This document shows, piece by piece, positions 6,104 through 49,346 of a stretch of DNA of 64,000 nucleotides (positions within the stretch are counted from its first letter, which is position 1; each line of letters begins with the position of its first letter). The DNA lies in NCBI GenBank assembly GCA_003388555.1, contig QQVD01000037.1:124001-188000 (forward strand). The letters are read 5' to 3'. The translations under genes were made by a program, and so were the position numbers. Source of the DNA: Acidobacteriota bacterium (GTDB lineage: Bacteria > Acidobacteriota > Thermoanaerobaculia > Multivoradales > Multivoraceae). The notes beneath the pieces are model-generated. The model saw only the letters and a program-made list of their open reading frames with translations, did no database searches and was not told the DNA's origin.

Positions 6104-8074
6104 TCAGTCCTCGCGGGCGGGATTCTCGAGGTAGGTGGTTCCTTCGAGCGACGACTCGAAGTAGCGGATGATCTGGCCCGAGGTGCGCCCGTCGATCGAG
6201 CCTGAGCGCACTGCCCGCTCGACGTCACGGCGGAAACGCTGCGCCAGCTCGTCGACGTCGTACTGCACGTACTCCAGCACCTCGCGCACGGTGTCGGCCG
6301 GGATCACCTCGTCGAGCAGCAGCCGCCCCTCGGAGTCGACCGAGGCGTGCACGGCGTTGGTGTCGCCGAAGAGGTTGTGCAGGTCACCGAGGATCTCCTG
6401 GTAGGCGCCGACGAGGAAGAAGCCGAGCACGTACTGCCGCTCGGAGTCTTCGTCGAGCTCGTGCAGCGGCAGCGAGCGCCGCACGTCGCGCAGGTCGATG
6501 AAGCGGTCGACCTTGCCGTCCGAGTCGCAGGAGACGTCGGCGAGCACGCCGTTGCGTGTCGGCTCCTCGTCGAGGCGATCGATCGGCTGGATCGGGAAGA
6601 GCTGCTGGATCGCCCAGCTGTCGGGGATGCTCTGGAACACCGACATGTTGCAGAAGTAGATGTCGGTGAGCATGCGATCGAGCCCGTCGAGCTCCTCCGA
6701 GGAGAGGTCGCTGGCGCGGTAGACCTTGTCGACCCGGCGCAGGATCGTCCAGTAGAGGTCCTCGGCGAGACTGCGCTGCTCGAGGGTGAGATAGCCGAGC
6801 CGGAAGAGGGTCAGTGCCTCCTCGAGGCCTGCCTGGGCGTCGTGGAAGCACTCGACGACCGTCTTGGCGGTGACGTTGGCCAGGGTCTCGACGAGATCGT
6901 GCAGCGGCTGCGGATCGTCGTCGGTGAGCTGTGGCTCGGGAGGCCTGTGCTGGCCGTAGGAGTTGACCCCGACGACGTTGCACAGCAGTACGCTGTGGTA
7001 GGCCGAGATCGCCCTGCCGCACTCGGTGATGATCAGCGGCTCGGGCACCTGGGAGTCGTGGCACACGTTGCCGACGTGGTACACGACGTCGTTGGCGTAC
7101 TCCTGCAGGGTGTAGTTCATGCTCGATTCGAAGCGCGTCTGCGAGCCGTCGTAGTCGATGCCGAGACCGCCGCCGACGTCGAGGATCTCGAGACCGGTGG
7201 CGCCGAGCCTGCGCAGCTCGGCGTAGACCCGCGCCGCCTCGGTGACCGCCGCCTTGAGCTGGCGGATGTCGGTGATCTGACTGCCGATGTGGAAGTGCAG
7301 CAGGCGCAGCGCCTCGGGATGCCCCTCGTTCTGCAGCCGTTGCAGCAGCTGTACGGTCTCGGTGGCGGTGAGGCCGAACTTCGAGCCGTGCCCGGCCGAG
7401 CTGCTCCAGCGGCCCGAGCCGCGGCTGGCCAGCTTGATCCGCACCCCGAGTTGCGGCGCGACCTCGTGTCGCTGCGCCAGCTCGAGCACCAGGTCGAGCT
7501 CGCTCGCCTTCTCGACCACCGGCAGGATGCTGCGGCCGATCTTGCGCCCCAGCGTCACCAGCTCGATGTACTCCTCGTCCTTGAAGCCGTTGCAGATGAT
7601 CTGGGTGTCGTTGTCGGCGAGCGCCAGGGTGGCCATCAGCTCGGGCTTGGAGCCGGCCTCGAGACCGCACAGCGTGCCGCCGCCGGCGGCACGGATCACG
7701 TCGACGACGTGGCGCTGTTGGTTCACCTTGATCGGGTAGACCGACAGGTGGCCGGCCGAATAGGAGTTCTCGGCAATCGCGGTGCGGAAGGCGGCGGCGA
7801 TCTCCTCGATGCGGTGCTCGAGGATCTCACCGAAGCGCACCAGCAGCGGCAGGTCGTAGCCGCGCAGCTCCGCCTCGCGTACGACCTCCACCAGACTGCT
7901 GGAGTGCGGTGAGGCGTTCCTGCCGCGCGGATGGCAGTGCAGCTGCCCGCCCTCGGAGATGGTGAAGTAGCCGTTGCTCCAACGGTTGGTGCCGTAGAGG
8001 TCTTCGCTACGTTGCACCGTCCACGAGCCGCGAGCGCTCCGGCTGCGGGGTTTCTCGGTCGTCGTCGTCGTCAT
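6104..8074 (-). CDS. speA: Biosynthetic arginine decarboxylase (PLP-dependent, SpeA type)
   Basis: The 656-residue length and full motif set match biosynthetic arginine decarboxylase, which converts arginine to agmatine in the first step of the agmatine route to putrescine and spermidine. The PLP lysine is K116 in YPIKVNQQRHVV; EILDVGGGLGIDYDG is the glycine-rich phosphate-binding loop, and VSCDSDGKVD carries the conserved active-site cysteine region of fold III decarboxylases. NMSVFQSIPDSWAI and GAYQEILGDLHNLFGD are further family signatures. It starts with ATG 8074 and a run of threonine codons and has no signal peptide, so it is cytoplasmic. No other polyamine gene is adjacent, so agmatinase or agmatine deiminase must be encoded elsewhere. 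Confidence 0.95.
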   Translation of the reverse strand: MTTTTTEKPRSRSARGSWTVQRSEDLYGTNRWSNGYFTISEGGQLHCHPRGRNASPHSSSLVEVVREAELRGYDLPLLVRFGEILEHRIEEIAAAFRTAIAENSYSAGHLSVYPIKVNQQRHVVDVIRAAGGGTLCGLEAGSKPELMATLALADNDTQIICNGFKDEEYIELVTLGRKIGRSILPVVEKASELDLVLELAQRHEVAPQLGVRIKLASRGSGRWSSSAGHGSKFGLTATETVQLLQRLQNEGHPEALRLLHFHIGSQITDIRQLKAAVTEAARVYAELRRLGATGLEILDVGGGLGIDYDGSQTRFESSMNYTLQEYANDVVYHVGNVCHDSQVPEPLIITECGRAISAYHSVLLCNVVGVNSYGQHRPPEPQLTDDDPQPLHDLVETLANVTAKTVVECFHDAQAGLEEALTLFRLGYLTLEQRSLAEDLYWTILRRVDKVYRASDLSSEELDGLDRMLTDIYFCNMSVFQSIPDSWAIQQLFPIQPIDRLDEEPTRNGVLADVSCDSDGKVDRFIDLRDVRRSLPLHELDEDSERQYVLGFFLVGAYQEILGDLHNLFGDTNAVHASVDSEGRLLLDEVIPADTVREVLEYVQYDVDELAQRFRRDVERAVRSGSIDGRTSGQIIRYFESSLEGTTYLENPARED

Positions 8075-8251
8075 CGGCTCACTTCTGGTGCGTTTCGGGA
8101 AGAACCGGGGCGTCTGCAGGAGACCGGCGATGTCGTCGGCCGCCGGCGGGCTCGAGCCTCCAGTGCAAGACTACCGTCCTGCCGCGCCGGAATCGACGTC
8201 GGATCTCTCCCCGCGGGCTGAGCGCGGGACGATCGCGGGCGCAGCCGGCGC

Positions 8252-9088
8252 TCACAGCCCGACACTCTGGCCGTCGAGCAGCGGCTTCACGACGGGGTCG
8301 CCCGATCGCACGCTCGTCGCCGCCAGGCGATCGAGGAACTCCCCGAGCTCCCGGGCGTCACGCTTCGGATGGTGGTGGACGGGGACGAGATGCGCCGCGC
8401 CGCACTCGCGGGCGAGAGCGTGCACATCCTCCGCGGCACTGTGTCCCAGGACCAGGCCGGGCTCCTCCTCGGCCTCGGCGCGGTCGCACCAGACCTCGTG
8501 CAGCAACCAGGTGGCGCCGGCCGCGAGCTCGCCGGTCGCCGCCTCGCAGGCGGTGTCGGTGACGTAGGCGATGCGGTCGCCGAGACGCATCCCGACCGAG
8601 CCTCCGGGATGGCGTTGACGGCGGACCCGGACCTCCAGGCCAGCGACCGAGAAGTCGCCGTCGTAGGGCACGATCTCCACCGGTTGGGGTAGCTGGTCGA
8701 GGCTGGCGGGGAAGAGCGGCGGGGCGATGAGGCGCCGCAACGCTTCGGCCGGCTCCGCGTCGACCAGCGGCGGTGCGGGGGCGAAGATGCGGCAGGGGCG
8801 CCGCCAGACACCCGACAGGTAGGTGAGCCCGACGACGTGGTCGAGATGGTAGTGGCTGAGCACGATATCGAGGCGCTCGACCTCGTCGAGCTGGCGGGCG
8901 ACGTCTGCCTCGCCGAGTCGCGACAGCCCGGTGCCGGCATCGAGCAGCAGCGGCGCACCGTCCAGGTGCAGCAGGAAGCACATGGTCTGGCGGCCGTATG
9001 CCGGATGGAAGCCGCCGCTGCCGAGCACCACGAGCCGGTCCCTGACCGGCAGCTCGTCGCTCCGGCGTGAGGTGGCGTCGAAGCTCAA
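8252..9088 (-). CDS. Metallo-beta-lactamase-fold hydrolase
   Basis: The 278-residue protein contains the MBL metal motif SHYHLDHVVGL (HxHxDH), a second metal segment RIAYVTDTACEA, and the distal histidine in HLVPVHHHP. LLDAGTGLSRLG is typical of the RNase Z/phosphodiesterase-like branch. No ATG precedes the fold; the best start is TTG 9088-9086, which overlaps the TGA of the upstream glycosyltransferase as TTGA, suggesting translational coupling. Family knowledge gives a dinuclear-zinc hydrolase, possibly a phosphodiesterase; the substrate is unknown. It has no signal peptide and is probably cytoplasmic. Confidence 0.85.
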   Translation of the reverse strand: MSFDATSRRSDELPVRDRLVVLGSGGFHPAYGRQTMCFLLHLDGAPLLLDAGTGLSRLGEADVARQLDEVERLDIVLSHYHLDHVVGLTYLSGVWRRPCRIFAPAPPLVDAEPAEALRRLIAPPLFPASLDQLPQPVEIVPYDGDFSVAGLEVRVRRQRHPGGSVGMRLGDRIAYVTDTACEAATGELAAGATWLLHEVWCDRAEAEEEPGLVLGHSAAEDVHALARECGAAHLVPVHHHPKRDARELGEFLDRLAATSVRSGDPVVKPLLDGQSVGL

Positions 9089-11499
9089 TCGCCCGCCCCG
9101 GGAGCCGTCGGTTCCTGCCCTGGCTCCGCGACGTCCGTCTGGCGAGCCGCCACCGTCACCGTCACTTCGCTGCGGTGGGTCTGGCCGCCGTTGCGCTCGG
9201 CGAACCAGCTGACGTACTCGCGCACCAGGTCGAGCTCGAGCAGGTAGACCCCGGGGCGGCTCGGCGCCCTGACCGGCAGCTCGACGCGGCCCGACTCGCC
9301 GGGCGCCAGCGGTGGCGCCGGTGCGCGCAGCCCGTCGAAGTCGACCGCCGTCCCGTCGGTCTCGAGCCAGTGCGACGAGAGGTTGATCTCGGCCACGCCG
9401 CGAGCCGTCCAGGCGGCCCGGGAGCGATTCGTGATCTCTGCCGTCACCACGAAGCGTTCGCCGCGGCCCACCGTGGCCGGCGCCGTCACCTGGTCCCAGG
9501 AGAGCTGGTAGATGTCGCTCGCCACCTCGTCGCTCGGGCCGAGGAGTCTCAGCGCGACGCCGCCGTAGAACGACTCCGAGACCTGACGGTCGAAGCGGAA
9601 CGAATCGCAGGGCCAGGGCGGGAAGTACCGCGTCCAGTGCACCATCCCGCCACGGTCGCTGCGCACCTCGAGCTCGTAGACGTAGGCCGCAGGTCCCACC
9701 ACCAGGTGGCGTCGCGCGGCGCGGCGTGGCTCGAGCTCGACGGTGCGTGCCTCGCCCTCGGTGAGCTGCAGCGTCTCGCGGTCTCCGCCGAGCGAGATCT
9801 CGACCGTGCTGTCGGGCGCCTGTCCGACCAGCTGCACCGAGTAGCGATCCAGGGGCTCGCGTGCCAGGAGCAGCACCCGCACCGGTACGCGCGCCGCCGC
9901 CACCAGCTCGTGGCCGCGCCGCACCACCTGATCGGCGCGCGCGATCCAGCGCAGCTCGCCGGGCTCGCCGAGGTTCTCGCTGTGGTAGCCGGGTACGTTC
10001 TTGAGCGTCAGCTCGAGCGGGAAGTGGCGCAGGGGCCAGTTGCGGGTGTGTGCCTGCAGCGTCGCCTCGGGCACGGTGATACCGAAGGGTGTGAGCAGCA
10101 GCGGCCCGATCACCAGGCCGGTCCAGGCGCTGGTGGCGAGCAGCGTCCAGGTCGGGCGCAGGTCGCGGACCAGGAAGATCAGCGCCGGCACCGCGTTGAC
10201 GAAGTAGCGGTTGCCGACGAAGCCGCCGCCGCCCTGCCAGTTCCATCCGATGTAGAGCAGGAAGTAGATGGCGATCATGGCCACCGAGCCGAGCAGCCAC
10301 CAGCGTGCCGCGTCGGCGCCGCGGCCGCGGCGCAGGAAGAGCAGCACGGCGAGCACCGCCCAGGGGAAGTAGTGCACGAGCCCGGTGTGCCGGCCCCACA
10401 GGAAGTAGCCGAGGTTCTCGAGCCAGCGTCCGGGCTCGAGCTCGGGCACCCGCAGCAGCCAGTAGAAGGAGCGGTTCTCGGGATCCGCTGCGGCATCAGC
10501 GTCGGCCTCGGCCTCGGCGGCGCTCGCCTCGGCGATCGCGGCCGGCGTCGACGACACGGCAGCGGTGGCGACGGTCTCGGTCCACCCAGCCGGGCGCGGC
10601 ACCTCTCCGGGCTCGCAGACGCGCACGCCCTGACGCCCGGCGACGCCGTAGGCGGAGGCGTGACCGGTGAGCAGGAGCGATCCGGCGACGAGCAGGGCGA
10701 TGGTGATGGCGCCGCCGCCTGCCGTCAGCGCCGCCGGCCGGAGGCGCTCGATCAGGCTCGGCGCACGCTCTCCGACGCGATCGCCGCCGTTGCCGCCGCC
10801 GCTCGCCTCGTGCCCTCGCCGCAGCAGCGGCGGCAGTACCACGGGCAGGGCCAGCGCGACGAGCATCGGCTTGTTGTAGACCGGCAGGGCCAGCGCGCAG
10901 CCGCTGGCGAAGAGGGCCAGAGCACCCGGAGCCCGGTCCTTCCGCCACGGAAAGCCGAGGTAGAGGGCCAGGGTGACGAAGAACATGTTGAACACTTCCG
11001 GCTGCAGCCAGAAGGCGTAGACGCTGCAGGCGCTGAGGCCGAAGAAGCCGGCCGAGAAGAAGAGCGCCAGCGGGCCGGGGTCGTGCTCGGCGATGACCCG
11101 CCAGCCGATGCCCACCATCAGCCAGAGCATCAGCAGGTTGGCGCAGAGCAGCCCGTTGCTGCCGAAGAGCCGGGCGAACGGGGCGACGAAGAGCGGGTAG
11201 ACGTACGGCTTGCCGTAGTGCACCGTGCTCCAGCCGTCGTCGCTGAAGACGATCAGGTTGCTCGTCCAGCGCAGCGGGAACTCGTCGAACAGGCGCCGTG
11301 TGTCATCGGCGCCGACGACGAGGTCGAGATCCCAGGCGAGACTCGACGCCATCATCACGTAGGCGGACTCGTCGGCCTTCAGCCCGCCCGGGACACCCGG
11401 CTTCTGCAGCGCCAGCGGAGTCAGCACCAGGAACAGACCGAACGCCGCGTAGACCCGGCGCGCGATCGAGTGGGAGCTGGCGCGCGCCTCCTCGTGCAT
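9085..11499 (-). CDS. Multi-spanning membrane glycosyltransferase-like protein with a C-terminal beta-sandwich region
   Basis: The 804-residue protein starts at ATG 11499 behind a GGAAGGA ribosome-binding site. Residues about 10-450 hold many hydrophobic spans (AAFGLFLVLTPLALQ, LALYLGF, MIAIYFLLYIGWNW, PALIFLVRDL). The acidic motif KADESAYVMMASSLAWD lies in the first extracytoplasmic loop, as in GT-C enzymes that use lipid-linked sugar donors. The C-terminal 350 residues are soluble and rich in beta strands, with a run resembling an Ig-like domain (GRGERFVVTAEITNRSRAAW, ELPVRAPSRPGVYLLELDLV). Overlap with the MBL gene suggests a two-gene operon. Donor and acceptor are unknown. Confidence 0.75.
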   Translation of the reverse strand: MHEEARASSHSIARRVYAAFGLFLVLTPLALQKPGVPGGLKADESAYVMMASSLAWDLDLVVGADDTRRLFDEFPLRWTSNLIVFSDDGWSTVHYGKPYVYPLFVAPFARLFGSNGLLCANLLMLWLMVGIGWRVIAEHDPGPLALFFSAGFFGLSACSVYAFWLQPEVFNMFFVTLALYLGFPWRKDRAPGALALFASGCALALPVYNKPMLVALALPVVLPPLLRRGHEASGGGNGGDRVGERAPSLIERLRPAALTAGGGAITIALLVAGSLLLTGHASAYGVAGRQGVRVCEPGEVPRPAGWTETVATAAVSSTPAAIAEASAAEAEADADAAADPENRSFYWLLRVPELEPGRWLENLGYFLWGRHTGLVHYFPWAVLAVLLFLRRGRGADAARWWLLGSVAMIAIYFLLYIGWNWQGGGGFVGNRYFVNAVPALIFLVRDLRPTWTLLATSAWTGLVIGPLLLTPFGITVPEATLQAHTRNWPLRHFPLELTLKNVPGYHSENLGEPGELRWIARADQVVRRGHELVAAARVPVRVLLLAREPLDRYSVQLVGQAPDSTVEISLGGDRETLQLTEGEARTVELEPRRAARRHLVVGPAAYVYELEVRSDRGGMVHWTRYFPPWPCDSFRFDRQVSESFYGGVALRLLGPSDEVASDIYQLSWDQVTAPATVGRGERFVVTAEITNRSRAAWTARGVAEINLSSHWLETDGTAVDFDGLRAPAPPLAPGESGRVELPVRAPSRPGVYLLELDLVREYVSWFAERNGGQTHRSEVTVTVAARQTDVAEPGQEPTAPGAGD

Positions 11500-43173: not shown

Positions 43174-44247
43174 CTACGCCTCTGCCCTCGGACACAGCCG
43201 CTCGGCCAGCTCGAGCGCCTCGCGCGCCGACGCGGTGCAGCCGTCGGCGCCGACCTTGCGCCAGAGGTCTTCGGCGCCGCCGAAGGCCCGTCCGCCCACC
43301 AGGACCTTGAGGTCGCGGTCGGGCAGAGAGTCGCGCAGCAGCTGGATGGTGTCGCGGATTCCGGGCAGGTGCACCGCCAGAGTGCCCGAGAGGAGCAGCA
43401 GGTCGGTGTCGAAGACCTCGATGCCGACGACCAGATCGCGAGCCGGCACATCCGAGCCGAGCAGGATCGAGCGCCAACCGCGGAGCTCGAACAGGTCGGT
43501 CAGGACGCGCAGCGCCATGTCGTGGGCGTTGCCGCTGGTGGCGGCGGCGATCACCGTGCGCTGACGGCCAGTGGGCTCATCGGAGATGGCGCGCTCGCGC
43601 AGGGCCGACTGGGCGCGGTGCGCGAGCACCACCATCGACCTCTGGGTCGTCGAGGTGCAGAAGTGTTCCTGGGCGATGCCGATCTCTCCGCTGTGCCAGA
43701 GCTCGCCGATCTCTCGCTGCGCCGGCACCAGCACGTTCTCGTAGAGGTCGATCGGATCGGTGCCGGCTTCGAAGGCGTCGACGATGGAGGAGATCGCAGC
43801 CTGGCGGTCTCCTCCGAGCACCAGCTCGACGTAGCGCCAGGCCAGGCGGTCGGCGGGTGCCAGCCGCTGCACGCTCGGAGTCGATTCCGCCAGGTGTCGG
43901 GTCGCCTGCAGCAGGTAGTCGCTGGCGACGCCGCCGATCGGCGCCGGCAACTTCTCCTCGATCACCTCGCGCATGACCTCGAGCGAGCGCGCGAGATCCT
44001 CTTTCTCGAGTCCGCGCAGGTCGAAAGCGCTGTGCGACCAGCGCACCTCGTCGGCGAGCAGGCGCGGTTCCTCGAGCAGGAGCGCGGCGCGCAGCTGCAG
44101 GAAGCGCTGGTGGGCGTGGGCCTTCCAGGCGTCGAAGTCGCGGCCGCCGTCCTCTCCGGGTGTACAGAGCTCGGAGGCGACGAAGCCGGCGAGCGACGAG
44201 GCGCTGTTGCCGATCAGGGTGGCGGCGAGCTGCGTGGTGGAGCTCAT
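43174..44247 (-). CDS. CarH-type cobalamin-binding light-sensor protein without DNA-binding domain
   Basis: The 357-residue protein starts at ATG 44247 behind AAGG. Residues about 1-130 form a helical region that lacks a MerR-type helix-turn-helix. A four-helix B12-binding domain follows, with W184 and E194-H195 in LWHSGEIGIAQEHFC, the Wx9EH motif that caps adenosylcobalamin in CarH photoreceptors. The C-terminal Rossmann B12 domain has the lower-ligand histidine H242 in SGNAHDMALRVLTD, plus LLSGTLAVHLPG and LKVLVGGRAFGG. By family knowledge light would cleave adenosylcobalamin and change its assembly; the output partner is unknown. AerR-like regulators share this layout. It has no signal peptide. 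Confidence 0.85.
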   Translation of the reverse strand: MSSTTQLAATLIGNSASSLAGFVASELCTPGEDGGRDFDAWKAHAHQRFLQLRAALLLEEPRLLADEVRWSHSAFDLRGLEKEDLARSLEVMREVIEEKLPAPIGGVASDYLLQATRHLAESTPSVQRLAPADRLAWRYVELVLGGDRQAAISSIVDAFEAGTDPIDLYENVLVPAQREIGELWHSGEIGIAQEHFCTSTTQRSMVVLAHRAQSALRERAISDEPTGRQRTVIAAATSGNAHDMALRVLTDLFELRGWRSILLGSDVPARDLVVGIEVFDTDLLLLSGTLAVHLPGIRDTIQLLRDSLPDRDLKVLVGGRAFGGAEDLWRKVGADGCTASAREALELAERLCPRAEA

Positions 44248-44441
44248 CGTAGGACCTTCGTTCTTGGCGGGGATGGGTGGCGGTGGACCTGACATCGATC
44301 CAGCTTGGAAGAGGAGGTGAGGTCGCCCGCTGGAGGTTGCCGGGAGCCGCAGTCCATGGGAGCGGTCGATCGGATTCTACGTTCCCGGTTCGTCCCCTCT
44401 CCAGCGCCGGTCCTGCACCTCGGTGCTGGAGCCCGCGGCGC

Positions 44442-44615
44442 TCACTCCGAGCGCAGCGCGTCGAGCTCGCGTCCGACCTCCTCGGCCGCCGCGGTGCGCT
44501 CGGCGAAACGGGCCATGTCGCCGCCGCGCTGTGCCGCCTGGGCCTGCTCGAGCAGCCGTCGGTACCTGGTCTCGAGTCGTCGCGCGCGCCTTGCGTCGAG
44601 CCACTGCCTGATCAT
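44442..44615 (-). CDS. Small DUF6435/Lacal_2735-like protein (57 residues)
   Basis: ATG 44615 follows a near-perfect ribosome-binding site AGGAGG six bases upstream. The 57-residue product begins MIRQWLDARRARRLETRYRR and continues with LLEQAQAAQRGGDMARFAE and EEVGRELDALRSE. This LExxYxxLLEQAxxAQRxGD pattern matches the short helical proteins annotated DUF6435 or Lacal_2735, whose function is unknown. The sequence predicts one or two amphipathic helices. It lies between the Tricorn gene and the B12-binding gene on the same strand, 194 bases before the latter, and may be cotranscribed. Confidence 0.75.
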   Translation of the reverse strand: MIRQWLDARRARRLETRYRRLLEQAQAAQRGGDMARFAERTAAAEEVGRELDALRSE

Positions 44616-44780
44616 CGGAGCCTCCTCTCCCTCAACTGTGGATTCGGGGCGCGCGGGACCTCCACTGGAGCTCCAGGCGCGGCCGCGACGAGTGGCGCCA
44701 GGCCATTCCGTCCTCGGGCGCAGGGAGCTTCGCCAGCCGACGGTGGCCGGATGCGGGCTGCTGGCCCTGGCTCGTCTGCT

Positions 44781-47700
44781 TCAGGGCTCGTCGGTGCGAA
44801 CCCGCACCGGGAACGGCGGTCGCACCGGTCGACTCGGCGGCGACGCCTCGAGCTGTTCGAGCACGATCTCGATCGCCTTCTCGAGCTGCGGATCGCGCCC
44901 AGCCGCCACCTCAGCCGGCCACTGCTCGACCTCGACGTCGGGCGGCACGCCGACGTTCTCGACTCCGAAGCCCTCCTCGGTCCAGAAGGCGAGGTTGGGC
45001 GCCGTGACGAAGCCGCCATCGATCAGCACCGGGAAGCCGAGGATGCCGACCAGGCCTCCCCAGGTCCGCTTGCCGACGAGGGTGCCGAGCTCGAGCCGAC
45101 GGAACATCCACGGCAGCAGATCGCCGCCGGAGCCGGCGGTCTCGTCGATCAGCATCACCTTGGGCCCGTCGATCGCGGCGCTCGGGGTGCGCAGGTCGCG
45201 TCCGTAGCGGGTCGCCCAGCTGGCCAGGTGCTCCCGGCGCAGGTGGTCGATCACGTAGTCCGCCACCTGGCCGCCGCCGTTGAACCGCTCGTCGACGATG
45301 ATCGCCTGTTTGTCGACCTGGGGGTAGAAGTAGCGCTTGAAGTACTCGTGGCCGAGGCCCGCGGTGTTCGGCACCCAGACGTAGGCAACCCGCCCGTCGG
45401 TGGCTTCGTGCACCCGACGCAGGTTGCCCTCGACCCAGGCCCTGCTGCGTAGCGCCGCCTCGCTGGCGACGGGTGTCACCCGCACCGTGCGTGCGTCCTC
45501 TCCGCGTGGATCACTGGCCAGGGTGATCTCGACGCTCCTCCCGGCCGTGCCCTCGAAGGGCGCGTAGACGCTCTGCGCCGAGGTGAGCTCCGCACTGTTC
45601 ACCGCGATCAGGTACTCACCCTCTCGCGCTCCCACGCCCGGTTCGGTCAGCGGCGAGCGCAGCTCGGGGTTCCAGTTGAGCCCGGGGTAGAGGCGCCGGA
45701 TCCGATAGCGGTCGCTGGAGATCTCCCAGTCGGCACCGAGCAGTCCGCCGGGAACGCTGTCGCTCTCCGTGCGCGCGTCGCCACCCCCGAGGTACGAGTG
45801 GCCGACCGCGAGCTCGCTGAGCATCCACTCGAGCACCCGCCCGAGGTCGGCCCGCGTGGTCAGGTGGGAGAGGAACTCGGAATAGGTCTCGCCGATCGCG
45901 TCCCAGTCGGCTCCGTGCATGTTCGGGTCGTAGAAGTAGTCGCGGTTGATCCGCCACACCTCGCGCAGGATCTGCGCCCACTCGGCCGGCGGGTCGACGC
46001 GGACCCGCAGCTTGCCGACGTCGAGCGCTTGCTCGCCTGGGTCGATCGGCTGACCGAGGGGGGAGATGCCCCAGCCCGAGGCCGTCGCCCAGAGCAGGTG
46101 GCTGCGGTCGGGCGACAGCGCGAAGCCCTGCACGCCTTGCGTCAGCGCTTCCTCCTCTCGCCCCTCGATGTCGTAGCGCACCAGCTCGGCCCCGCCGCTC
46201 GCGTCCGAGCCCTGGCGCAGCACGTAGAGGGCGCCGTCGGCCGCCTGCAGCTGGCCGTAGTTGGCCGGCGCCATCGGCAGGGCGACGATGCGCTCGTCGA
46301 GGCGCTCGAAGTCGATCACGACTGCGGCAACGCCGTTCTCTCCGTTCTCCCCTTCCTCGGATTCGCTGTCCGCGCCGTCTTCGCCCTCCGCCCCCTCGTC
46401 CGCGAGCTCGACCTCGTCGCTCTGCGGTGCCAGCGGCGAGGGCTCGCCCTCGGCGAGGACGACCACGTAGACGCTCGAGGTGCGCTCCATGTCGGCGTTG
46501 GACATCGAGAACCAGTGGTTCACCGGGCCCGCATCGGTCGAGGCGAGCAGGTAGAGGTACTTGCCGCTCCGGTCGAAGGCCGGCTCGGCGACGTCGCTGA
46601 GTCCGTCGGTCACCCGGGTCGAGGCGCCGCTGCGCGAGTCCCAGATCCAGGCCGACGCCACCGCCGCCTCGCTGCTCAGGGTGTAGGCGAGCCATCGCGA
46701 GTCGGGCGACCAGTCGTGCTCCAGGGCCCTCAGGGGCTCGGGCCCGAAGCTCGGCTCGCGCGCCACTTCGATGAGCTCGTCGCGCTCGAGGTCGAGCACG
46801 AAGAGGGCCCAGGAGTTGTCGATGAAGGACAGCTTGTCGCCGTCCGGTGACCAGCTCGGGTGTTCGTAGAAGCCGGCGCCGCCGCGACTGGCGAGCTCGA
46901 AGATCCGCGGCTCGCCGCTGCCGTCCTGCGGCTCGACGTGCAGGCTGTACTCGCCGCCGCGGTCCGAGAAGTAGGCGATGTGACGTCCGTCGGGCGACCA
47001 CGCTGGCGAGCGCTCGTGCACCGCCGAGCTGCCGGTCAGGTTGCGCACGTCGCCCTTCTTGGCGGGCAGGGTGAGGATCTCGCCGCGGTACTCGAACACC
47101 GCTCTCTGGCCGCCCGGAGAGAGACCGGCCGAGCGGATCCACTCGTCGCCGTCGACCCAGCGCGGCCGACGCTCGTCGAGATCGTCGACGAGGGAGACAC
47201 GCAGCCTCTGGCTGCTCGAGGCTCCCGGTGTGTAGAGGTGCAGGTAGCCCGCCTGTTCGAAGACGATGCTCTCGCCGTCGCCCTGCACCGCGAGGATCGG
47301 GAAGTCGTCGAAGTCGGTGTGCTGCTGCACCGGAGAGTCAGGGTCGGAGGTGTCCCAGGAGAAGAGGTTGAACTCGCCGGCTCGATCGGAGCGGAAGAAG
47401 ACCCGCTCCCCGACCCACACCGGCATGGTGTCGTTGCAGCGCCCGATCGGCTGTGGCACCTGCACCACGCCCTGGTCGCCGACGTCGTAGATCCAGATGC
47501 GCGAGGTGGTGCCGCCGCGGTAGTTCTTCCACTGGTGGAAGGCCTCCGAGAGGGGCACGTAGGCGATCTTGGCGCCGTCGGGGGAGTACGAGGCGCGCAG
47601 CCCGTGCGGGATCGGCAGCTGGGCGGGGAAGACCCCGGAGGAGGGATCGGCCGGGATCTCGAACAGCTGGATGTGGCGGCGGGTGAAGGTGGCCCGCTGC

Positions 47701-48158
47701 GAGGCGAACAGCACCCGCTGGCCGTCGGGGCTCCAGTCCTCGACGAAGTCGGGATCGGGGTGCCAGGTGAGGCGCTGCGGCACGCCGCCGCTCACCGGTA
47801 CGACGAAGACGTCGGTGTTGCCGTCGTACTGGGCCGAGAAGGCGAGGAGGCCGCCGTCGGGCGAGAAGCGCGGCAGCCGCTCGCTGCCCTCGTGCGAGGT
47901 GATGCGGCGGGCGCCGCTGCCGTCGCGGTCGGCGATCCACAGGTCGCCGGCGTACTGGAAGGCGACGTGGTCGCGGCTCAGGGCCGGGTCGCTGAGCAGC
48001 CGGACGTCGGAGAGATCCACCGCCATCGTCGTGCTGGCGGTCGCGGCGCAGAGAAGCAGCGAAGCGCCCACGAGGCGGCGGCCGCCGGCGGGCGATCTGC
48101 GAGGCGCGGGGTGGGACGGATCGGCGGCTGCGGACGGTCGGCGGTCGGCATGCGGCAT
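44781..48158 (-). CDS. Tricorn protease homologue (S41 family), exported
   Basis: ATG 48158 gives 1125 residues with a signal peptide (LVGASLLLCAATASTTMA). Residues about 45-560 hold propeller repeats with PD40 motifs (SPDGGLLAFSAQYDG, SPDGRHIAYFSDRGG, SPDSRWLAYTLSSE). An acidic stretch (DEGAEGEDGADSESEEGENG) follows. The C-terminal half has the tricorn core domain (WRINRDYFYDPNMHGADWD), a PDZ-like region and the S41 catalytic elements: H787 in ELAVGHSYLGGG and S1010 in IDETAGSGGDLL. Tricorn degrades oligopeptides in cells; the signal peptide predicts a periplasmic or surface form. It is likely a processive peptidase of exported peptides. Confidence 0.9.
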   Translation of the reverse strand: MPHADRRPSAAADPSHPAPRRSPAGGRRLVGASLLLCAATASTTMAVDLSDVRLLSDPALSRDHVAFQYAGDLWIADRDGSGARRITSHEGSERLPRFSPDGGLLAFSAQYDGNTDVFVVPVSGGVPQRLTWHPDPDFVEDWSPDGQRVLFASQRATFTRRHIQLFEIPADPSSGVFPAQLPIPHGLRASYSPDGAKIAYVPLSEAFHQWKNYRGGTTSRIWIYDVGDQGVVQVPQPIGRCNDTMPVWVGERVFFRSDRAGEFNLFSWDTSDPDSPVQQHTDFDDFPILAVQGDGESIVFEQAGYLHLYTPGASSSQRLRVSLVDDLDERRPRWVDGDEWIRSAGLSPGGQRAVFEYRGEILTLPAKKGDVRNLTGSSAVHERSPAWSPDGRHIAYFSDRGGEYSLHVEPQDGSGEPRIFELASRGGAGFYEHPSWSPDGDKLSFIDNSWALFVLDLERDELIEVAREPSFGPEPLRALEHDWSPDSRWLAYTLSSEAAVASAWIWDSRSGASTRVTDGLSDVAEPAFDRSGKYLYLLASTDAGPVNHWFSMSNADMERTSSVYVVVLAEGEPSPLAPQSDEVELADEGAEGEDGADSESEEGENGENGVAAVVIDFERLDERIVALPMAPANYGQLQAADGALYVLRQGSDASGGAELVRYDIEGREEEALTQGVQGFALSPDRSHLLWATASGWGISPLGQPIDPGEQALDVGKLRVRVDPPAEWAQILREVWRINRDYFYDPNMHGADWDAIGETYSEFLSHLTTRADLGRVLEWMLSELAVGHSYLGGGDARTESDSVPGGLLGADWEISSDRYRIRRLYPGLNWNPELRSPLTEPGVGAREGEYLIAVNSAELTSAQSVYAPFEGTAGRSVEITLASDPRGEDARTVRVTPVASEAALRSRAWVEGNLRRVHEATDGRVAYVWVPNTAGLGHEYFKRYFYPQVDKQAIIVDERFNGGGQVADYVIDHLRREHLASWATRYGRDLRTPSAAIDGPKVMLIDETAGSGGDLLPWMFRRLELGTLVGKRTWGGLVGILGFPVLIDGGFVTAPNLAFWTEEGFGVENVGVPPDVEVEQWPAEVAAGRDPQLEKAIEIVLEQLEASPPSRPVRPPFPVRVRTDEP

Positions 48159-48389
48159 TGGGGGTTGGATCCTCTCGTGCTGGTGTCGAAGAGGACCTCT
48201 GGGAAACGCCGAGGAGCGTCGGCCGGCACGGCGCGCGTCACGCTGCGCGCTGCGGGCCGGCGACATCCTCCCGTCGTTCCCGTCGTCCTCGGAGCTGCCG
48301 GGAGTATCTCAGACTGCGAGTGGCTCCAGACCGGCCAGGATCGGGCCGGGCCGTTCGATCTCCACCGGGGTCCGGGTGCGCGTCGCGCC

Positions 48390-49232
48390 CTACCAGGGGA
48401 TCGCCTGGCCGTCCCAGGCGAAGAACCCGCCGGAATCCGCCGGCTCGGCGGCGACGGCGAGCTCCAGCAGACGGCGGGCCACCGGGCCGGGAGCGAACAG
48501 CTGCTCGTCGGGGACCGAGCTCTGGAACGGTTCGCTGAGCGGCGTGTCGACGGTGCCGGGATGGAGCAGCAGGCAGGTCGCTCCGGGGTTGCTGCGACGG
48601 AGCTCGATCGCCAGGCAGCGGTGGAGCTGGTTCAACGCTGCCTTCGAGGCGCGGTAGGCGTACCAGCCGCCGAGTCGGTTGTCGCCGATGCTGCCGACGC
48701 GCGCGCTGAGCGACACCCAGCGTGAAGCCTGCCGCCGCGGCATCAGTGGCACCACCGCCCTGGCCACCAGCAGTGGTGCCCAGGCGTTGATCGTGAAGAC
48801 GTCTTCGAGCGCCGCCCGGCGCAGATCGGCGAGCCGCCGTTCCGGCGCCAAGGGGGGCGTGGTGTCCTGGTCGTGCAGGCGGCCGCAGGCGACGAAGACC
48901 AGGCGCGGTCTGGCCGACGCCCGTACCATGCTCTCGGCCGCCGCCTCGATCGCTGCGTCGTCGCGCAGGTCGACCGCCAGATCGATCCGTTGCGCAGGAG
49001 CCGTCGGGGCGCCACCCGGAGCCGGCCCCCCGCGCCGCGACCAGGCGAAGACGCGGCCGACGCCGGGCGCGGCGACCAGCTCCGCCACCAGGGCGGCGCC
49101 GATGCCGCCGCTGGCGCCGACGACGAGAGCGTCGACGCCGGGGTCGGCCCGGGAGGCGACCAGGTCGTTGGGTAGCTCGATCGGACCGGCGGTGTCCAGC
49201 GAGCTGCGAGGCGCATCGGGCAGCGAGAGCAT
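48390..49232 (-). CDS. Short-chain dehydrogenase/reductase
   Basis: ATG 49232 gives 280 residues (a TTG six bases earlier is possible). The cofactor motif is ALVVGASGGIGAALVAELV, INAWAPLLVARAV corresponds to the NxAG-like region, and the catalytic triad is S in VSLSARVGSIGDNRLGG with YRASKAAL. LLHPGTVDTPLSEPFQ is the substrate-loop segment of classical SDRs. It would oxidise or reduce an alcohol or ketone with NAD(P); the substrate is unknown. A weak AAGG lies 12 bases upstream of the ATG. It sits alone between the Tricorn gene and the small charged-protein gene. Confidence 0.85.
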   Translation of the reverse strand: MLSLPDAPRSSLDTAGPIELPNDLVASRADPGVDALVVGASGGIGAALVAELVAAPGVGRVFAWSRRGGPAPGGAPTAPAQRIDLAVDLRDDAAIEAAAESMVRASARPRLVFVACGRLHDQDTTPPLAPERRLADLRRAALEDVFTINAWAPLLVARAVVPLMPRRQASRWVSLSARVGSIGDNRLGGWYAYRASKAALNQLHRCLAIELRRSNPGATCLLLHPGTVDTPLSEPFQSSVPDEQLFAPGPVARRLLELAVAAEPADSGGFFAWDGQAIPW

Positions 49233-49346
49233 CGCCAAGGCCCTTCGCCGGCCGTCGCTGCGCCGGATGTGCCGGAGACGCAGGATCTGCGGGGCGAGCC
49301 GCCGAGGATGCGATCCTCGAGGTCGCTCCGATCACCTCGAGACGCT

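Follow-up and report, generated by a model that had tools for sequence, protein, structure and literature searches.

Within the window, the whole stretch of 64,000 nucleotides of Acidobacteriota DNA that was analysed, the minus strand carries at positions 43174–44247 a gene for a 357-residue protein of the photoglobin-CBD (photocobilin) type, confirming the reading frame given in an earlier note on this DNA. M1 is invariant in an eight-sequence alignment, which favors a start at this codon over the alternative in-frame ATG upstream, at 44295. A scan of genome contigs with the single protein gave no match, and an alignment used as the query recovered full-length homologues in Acidobacteriota, Gammaproteobacteria, Planctomycetota, Alphaproteobacteria and other groups. 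Since these homologues span several phyla and reach 37–40% identity within the order of the host, the reading frame is not a chance one. Its product is probably a light sensor, in which a B12 photoreceptor is fused to a relative of the phycobiliproteins that harvest light in cyanobacteria; the pigment site of this relative seems to have been lost.

Upstream on the same strand lie a 57-residue DUF6435 protein (44442–44615; PF20027, 9.6e-11) and a Tricorn-like protease (44781–48266; Pfam PDZ_Tricorn, Tricorn_C1 and Peptidase_S41), the two neighbors already described in the earlier note. The DUF6435 and photocobilin genes are separated by a 194-bp gap devoid of any terminator-like site, and DUF6435 is possibly the first gene of a two-gene unit; a sigma70-like promoter match is also found in this gap (44374–44403, minus strand). 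No conservation of DUF6435 or Tricorn was seen beside the homologues, in a clustering of ORFs of 70 residues and above that does not reach the size of DUF6435. Both were rejected as functional partners on this ground, and the protease is considered a neighbor outside the system.

The C-terminal part of the protein, from about residue 131 to 357 (43177–43857), is a CarH-type AdoCbl-binding domain, recognized by Pfam as B12-binding_2 (residues 138–208, 1.6e-17) followed by B12-binding (residues 231–346, 5.7e-13). The residues singled out by the earlier note (W184, E194, H195, H242 and the loop N240-A-H-D-M-A245) all read as claimed. They fall within the complete light-response signature defined in PMC11796333 (GxxW, EH, GxxH and GxxxP), here G181xxW184, E194H195, G239xxH242 (G239NAH242) and G264xxxP268, and the assignment to the light-sensing type of AdoCbl domain is thereby supported. 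In that study, the four full-signature proteins tested all responded to green light and one control devoid of the signature did not. As an internal negative control for the cap motif, the methionine synthase of the host genome has GRLFNANELIVAEVL where the W-x9-EH cap would be, with DVHDIG as its ligand loop. The ligand loop had been presented as a peculiarity of this protein; the reading NAHDMA is correct, but N240 is present in 26 of the 36 subfamily members, the others having D or E.

The B12 part of the structural model fits CarH, with a VIA Z of about 20 to TtCarH, and its best matches are photocobilins (Z 25.3, 2.2 Å over 207 residues, to SasPcob 7–214); the comparison recovers the four-helix bundle plus Rossmann fold of the CarH-type photoreceptor domain. 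The signature is common to the CarH/LitR proteins (Thermus CarH, PDB ID: 5C8D; CtMerR, 8JBS), and the W131–H132 pair of TtCarH is likewise present as W184–H185. According to the motif table, most family members conserve H185, which corresponds to His132, the CarH residue responsible for the bis-His light state, whereas this position is occupied by Gln in SasPcob, Tyr in AbDPcob and Arg in CtMerR. In contrast to CarH/LitR, Pfam detects no helix-turn-helix, in line with the absence of a DNA-binding domain reported in the earlier note, and the N-terminus holds an additional globin domain and no MerR domain. The host genome encodes a PduO-type adenosyltransferase, the enzyme that makes AdoCbl. On these sequence features, the 357-residue protein is predicted to bind AdoCbl and to undergo green-light photochemistry.

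The N-terminal 130 residues had been described as helical and unassigned. They are indeed helical, and residues 1–128 (43864–44247) can be identified as a phycobiliprotein-like globin (photoglobin), so that the CarH-type domain does not stand alone as had been proposed. Pfam gave no match with the N-terminus of the window protein itself, and PF00502 (Phycobilisome) matched 4 of 25 family members, with a best E-value of 0.0019. Against all PDB sequences, a nine-sequence profile of residues 1–126 ranked the globins of AbPcob and SasPcob first (6.9e-6 and 2.3e-5), followed by allophycocyanin beta (1.1e-3); with a 25-sequence profile, the photocobilins came first again in the same order. As the full-length model yielded structural matches almost only to the B12 part, the N-terminal domain was folded separately. 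The resulting AlphaFold2 model has five helices (pLDDT 92) and is structurally closest to phycobiliproteins, smURFP and SasPcob 225–346 (VIA Z 15.0). The Foldseek E-values are modest (best 9e-3), and the 50 best rows are nearly all bilin-type globins or photocobilins. By itself, a Z of 15 would not fully set a bundle of helices apart from background, but the sequence profile points the same way as the structural matches. W41, W70 and R78 are invariant among the 25 sequences.

The profile and structure matches therefore identify a fusion of the photocobilin type, in which the globin precedes the B12 domain, and not a bare CarH domain. The protein combines the two parts of the photocobilins SasPcob and AbDPcob/AbPcob (PDB ID: 8J2W, 8J2X, 8J2Y; PMC10979010), a five-helix phycobiliprotein-like globin and a CarH-type AdoCbl domain, and shares with them the cap motif and the invariant globin tryptophan (W70, Trp296 in SasPcob). 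It differs from these by its N-terminal globin and its WxxH motif; an arrangement with the B12 domain at the C-terminus has already been stated for some photocobilins (PMC10979010). Photocobilins are thus closer relatives than CarH or than AerR, to which the earlier note had likened the protein. AerR (7TE2), a B12-binding regulator that works via a protein partner, as is proposed here, consists of a single B12 domain without a globin, and its sequence match is much weaker (E 0.0012); what stands of that comparison is the partner-mediated action. Six relatives, Hymenobacter being represented among them, have a diverged N-terminal domain without the W41/R48 pattern and no ECF partner (see below); response regulators or RND pumps are encoded close to some of them.

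In the profile alignment, H44 coincides with the aspartate that holds biliverdin (BV) in SasPcob (residue 264 of the chain and Asp270 in the paper, the offset being set from H102/H108 and W290/W296). In AbPcob, the same position is a histidine, which its authors blame for weak BV binding (PMC10979010). The CxRD/CxQD motif of bilin-binding globins reads W41-K-A-H44, the residues expected of a strict two-chromophore photocobilin (Asp270 and CxQD) being replaced by H44 and WxxH, and H44 is the most frequent residue at its position in the family motif table. A search for heme oxygenase (PF01126) found none in the host genome. Among 34 genomes searched, 7 gave a match and 27 none; in the class of the host, the enzyme was found in 1 of 12 carriers of the photocobilin gene and in none of the other 11, versus 15 of 149 class genomes overall. 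His44, the WxxH motif and the general lack of heme oxygenase argue for a green-light sensor that is probably bilin-free. Since no heme oxygenase was found in the host, self-made BV is unlikely, and any use of a bilin by the window protein appears doubtful, although biliverdin could come from outside. Bilin-type globins are also paired with B12-binding proteins in the BBAG-2 systems, but these are encoded by separate genes, in genomes that have a heme oxygenase, and carry an RGMC motif with demonstrated BV binding (PMC10151467).

Neighboring ORFs were clustered in 35 loci, and one recurrent neighbor of the homologues was identified, a SigK-like ECF sigma factor. Of 34 loci, 8 have it next to the photocobilin gene, a number to which two pairs of close relatives contribute. 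It lies directly downstream, with gaps of 0–23 bp, in L021–L024 and L026, and adjoins the gene in L033, L039 and L040. An RskA-type anti-sigma factor completes the cluster in L026 (RskA-photocobilin-ECF), while in L040 an RskA-ECF pair diverges from photocobilin-fasciclin; a fasciclin gene lies close by in L023, L039 and L040. In L021 and L023, the photocobilin-ECF pair lies beside genes for DUF1295, a type III polyketide synthase, an isoprenylcysteine methyltransferase-like protein and SRPBCC. In the host genome, the ECF orthologue (48% identity, the next paralogue having 33%) is unlinked to the photocobilin gene and sits on another contig within a fasciclin-ECF-RskA-like cluster; at 6652–10514 of that locus (L065), the order is fasciclin, SigK-like ECF (7511–8101), RskA-like anti-sigma factor (8098–9078) and a PQQ-propeller gene.

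Co-occurrence extended this association, all counts ignoring relatedness between genomes. In the class of the host, 9 of 12 photocobilin carriers have the ECF factor, versus 8 of 137 genomes without a photocobilin. A further 24 carriers belong to other groups; in these, the factor accompanied a conserved globin in 17 of 18 and a diverged globin in 0 of 6. In Gammaproteobacteria, 10 of 10 carriers had it, compared with 3 of 273 sampled background genomes (E ≤ 1e-30). Several genomes of the host class have the ECF factor without a photocobilin, and the dependence is therefore one-way, the sigma factor not needing the photocobilin. Replacement of the photocobilin by a CarH-type protein in these ECF-only genomes was considered and rejected, as only some of them carry MerR-B12 proteins. 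The genome evidence suggests that light-dependent gene switching by the window protein involves a single, specific alternative sigma factor. Action through a protein partner, as the earlier note had proposed, is accordingly probable, and we infer a contact with the ECF sigma factor or its anti-sigma factor. The characterized photocobilins do not share the SigK-like ECF association of this subfamily, the carriers of which mostly lack heme oxygenase. No link between a photocobilin and an ECF sigma factor was found in the literature searched, the original description of photoglobins (Comput Struct Biotechnol J 2022) lying outside its scope.

Upstream of the DUF6435 and photocobilin genes, in the gap that follows the Tricorn gene, lies an ECF-promoter-like site, CGCATCC-N16-CGAA (44755–44729, minus strand), the fixed bases of which are the same as in the site before the fasciclin gene of the unlinked host cluster. 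Its extended form, CATCCGG-N13-GCGAA, occurs three times in the 2.08 Mb scanned of the 6.8-Mb host genome: before the fasciclin gene, before the PQQ-propeller gene after RskA, and at 44755–44729. In L023, L039 and L040, fasciclin and ECF genes are repeatedly preceded by the related AATCC-N16-CGAA. In held-out upstream regions of photocobilin genes or operons, this element, or a CATCC form with a spacer of 15–16, was found four times versus 0.21 expected. The TGAATCC form was sought and is absent from the host genome, where CGCATCC is the local form. As the motif was defined after looking at the sequences, its strength is moderate.

The 357-residue protein thus belongs to a known kind, the photoglobin-B12 proteins, as a variant that apparently lacks a bilin and is associated with a single ECF sigma factor. 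On balance, we lean towards an AdoCbl light switch of photocobilin architecture that controls an ECF/anti-sigma system by protein contact and has its own gene in the regulon. Underlying this reading are results computed directly, namely the domains, motifs and fold, the lack of a recognizable heme oxygenase, the linkage and co-occurrence with the sigma factor and the shared promoter-like sites. In relatives, AdoCbl photolysis is established, as are the loss of dimers or tetramers and the regulation of partners by protein contact, a mode of action of which stand-alone photocobilins are capable (PMC10979010). In the dark, AdoCbl would be bound base-off on H242, its adenosyl group capped by W184, E194 and H195, and the protein would dimerize. 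Green light would break the Co–C bond and shift E194 and H195, whereupon H185 could ligate cobalt like His132 of CarH and so alter the dimer. The globin would most likely be a docked domain with a structural or transducing role, not a second chromophore carrier. Output would proceed by contact with the SigK-like sigma factor or its RskA-like anti-sigma factor, the dark AdoCbl form keeping the pair in one state and the light-induced change of the dimer altering sigma activity. The regulon, which would include fasciclin, may concern the envelope or photo-oxidative stress, and the photocobilin gene, as a putative member, would be subject to feedback.

Other readings were weighed against this one. 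A true two-chromophore photocobilin, sensing green and red light with biliverdin supplied by neighbors or by an unrecognized enzyme, would agree with the bilin-binding family and fold of the globin, with the invariant W70, equivalent to the SasPcob tryptophan that contacts both BV and the corrin, and with the seven genomes that do have a heme oxygenase match. AbPcob, despite the same histidine, retains some BV binding (about 20%) and a red-light response and is still called a photocobilin (PMC10979010). The replacement of CxRD/CxQD by WxxH and the failure to find heme oxygenase in the host and most carriers nevertheless make this reading unlikely. We are similarly skeptical that the same light sensor addresses another output partner, the ECF association reflecting only a shared niche of light or photo-oxidative stress. 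The unlinked ECF gene of the host, the genomes with ECF and no photocobilin, and the homologues whose neighbors are RND pumps, response regulators or dus would all suit that explanation, which has to contend with an adjacency repeated in unrelated phyla, a near-complete, one-way co-occurrence and a shared promoter motif.

That the protein senses the level of AdoCbl and is not used as a photoreceptor seems quite improbable: the motif does tell the type of cofactor pocket and not the physiology, but the green-light responses that followed the full signature in PMC11796333 and the induction of fasciclin genes in other bacteria by light or photo-oxidative stress (PMC9861118, PMC7074977) weigh against it. 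Least credible by far is a corrinoid protein of a B12-dependent methyltransferase, for which NCBIfam offers two weak hits, pyl_corrinoid (55 bits) and MtgC (54 bits). These scores are far under the cut-offs of 215 and 370 bits, the W-x9-EH cap is present, and no corrinoid-type methyltransferase, the neighbor that the earlier note had associated with such a protein, lies beside the window gene (flanked by DUF6435, Tricorn and a TPR protein) or recurs beside its homologues. The light-sensor reading is probably correct.

B12 photoreceptors are known to act through DNA binding and diguanylate cyclase, and the preferred sigma-factor reading would add direct control of a sigma factor as a further output. 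It would also provide a candidate light input for the SigK-RskA-fasciclin systems, the stimuli of which have been called obscure (PMC9861118). The host cluster has the same composition (ECF, RskA-like anti-sigma factor and fasciclin) as those of Mycobacterium and of Rhodobacter capsulatus, whose RpoE is SigK-like (PMC7074977), but in the papers found those systems have no B12 photoreceptor tied to them. Light induces fasciclin genes in Mycobacterium kansasii (PMC9861118), as photo-oxidative stress does a fasciclin protein in Rhodobacter sphaeroides (PMC7074977). The phycobiliprotein-like globin would then have been retained for structure or signaling after loss of the pigment. More tentatively, and with somewhat less than even confidence, we propose a widespread class of bilin-less photoglobin-B12 proteins that are directly coupled, through their AdoCbl photochemistry, to a SigK-like ECF sigma factor and an RskA-like anti-sigma factor, so that the sigma factor is switched by light via B12. 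The link to the sigma factor deserves testing, for which three components would suffice: the small sensor protein, the sigma factor and the anti-sigma factor.

Two further observations were made. At 49270–49244 (minus strand), ACATCCGG-N14-GCGAA lies just before a short-chain dehydrogenase gene (48390–49238), possibly another member of the regulon; this sequence nearly repeats the motif, its spacer being longer by one base. In two genomes of the host order, a CarH-type B12-binding domain is followed by a C-terminal XRE-like helix-turn-helix, a regulator of inverted architecture.
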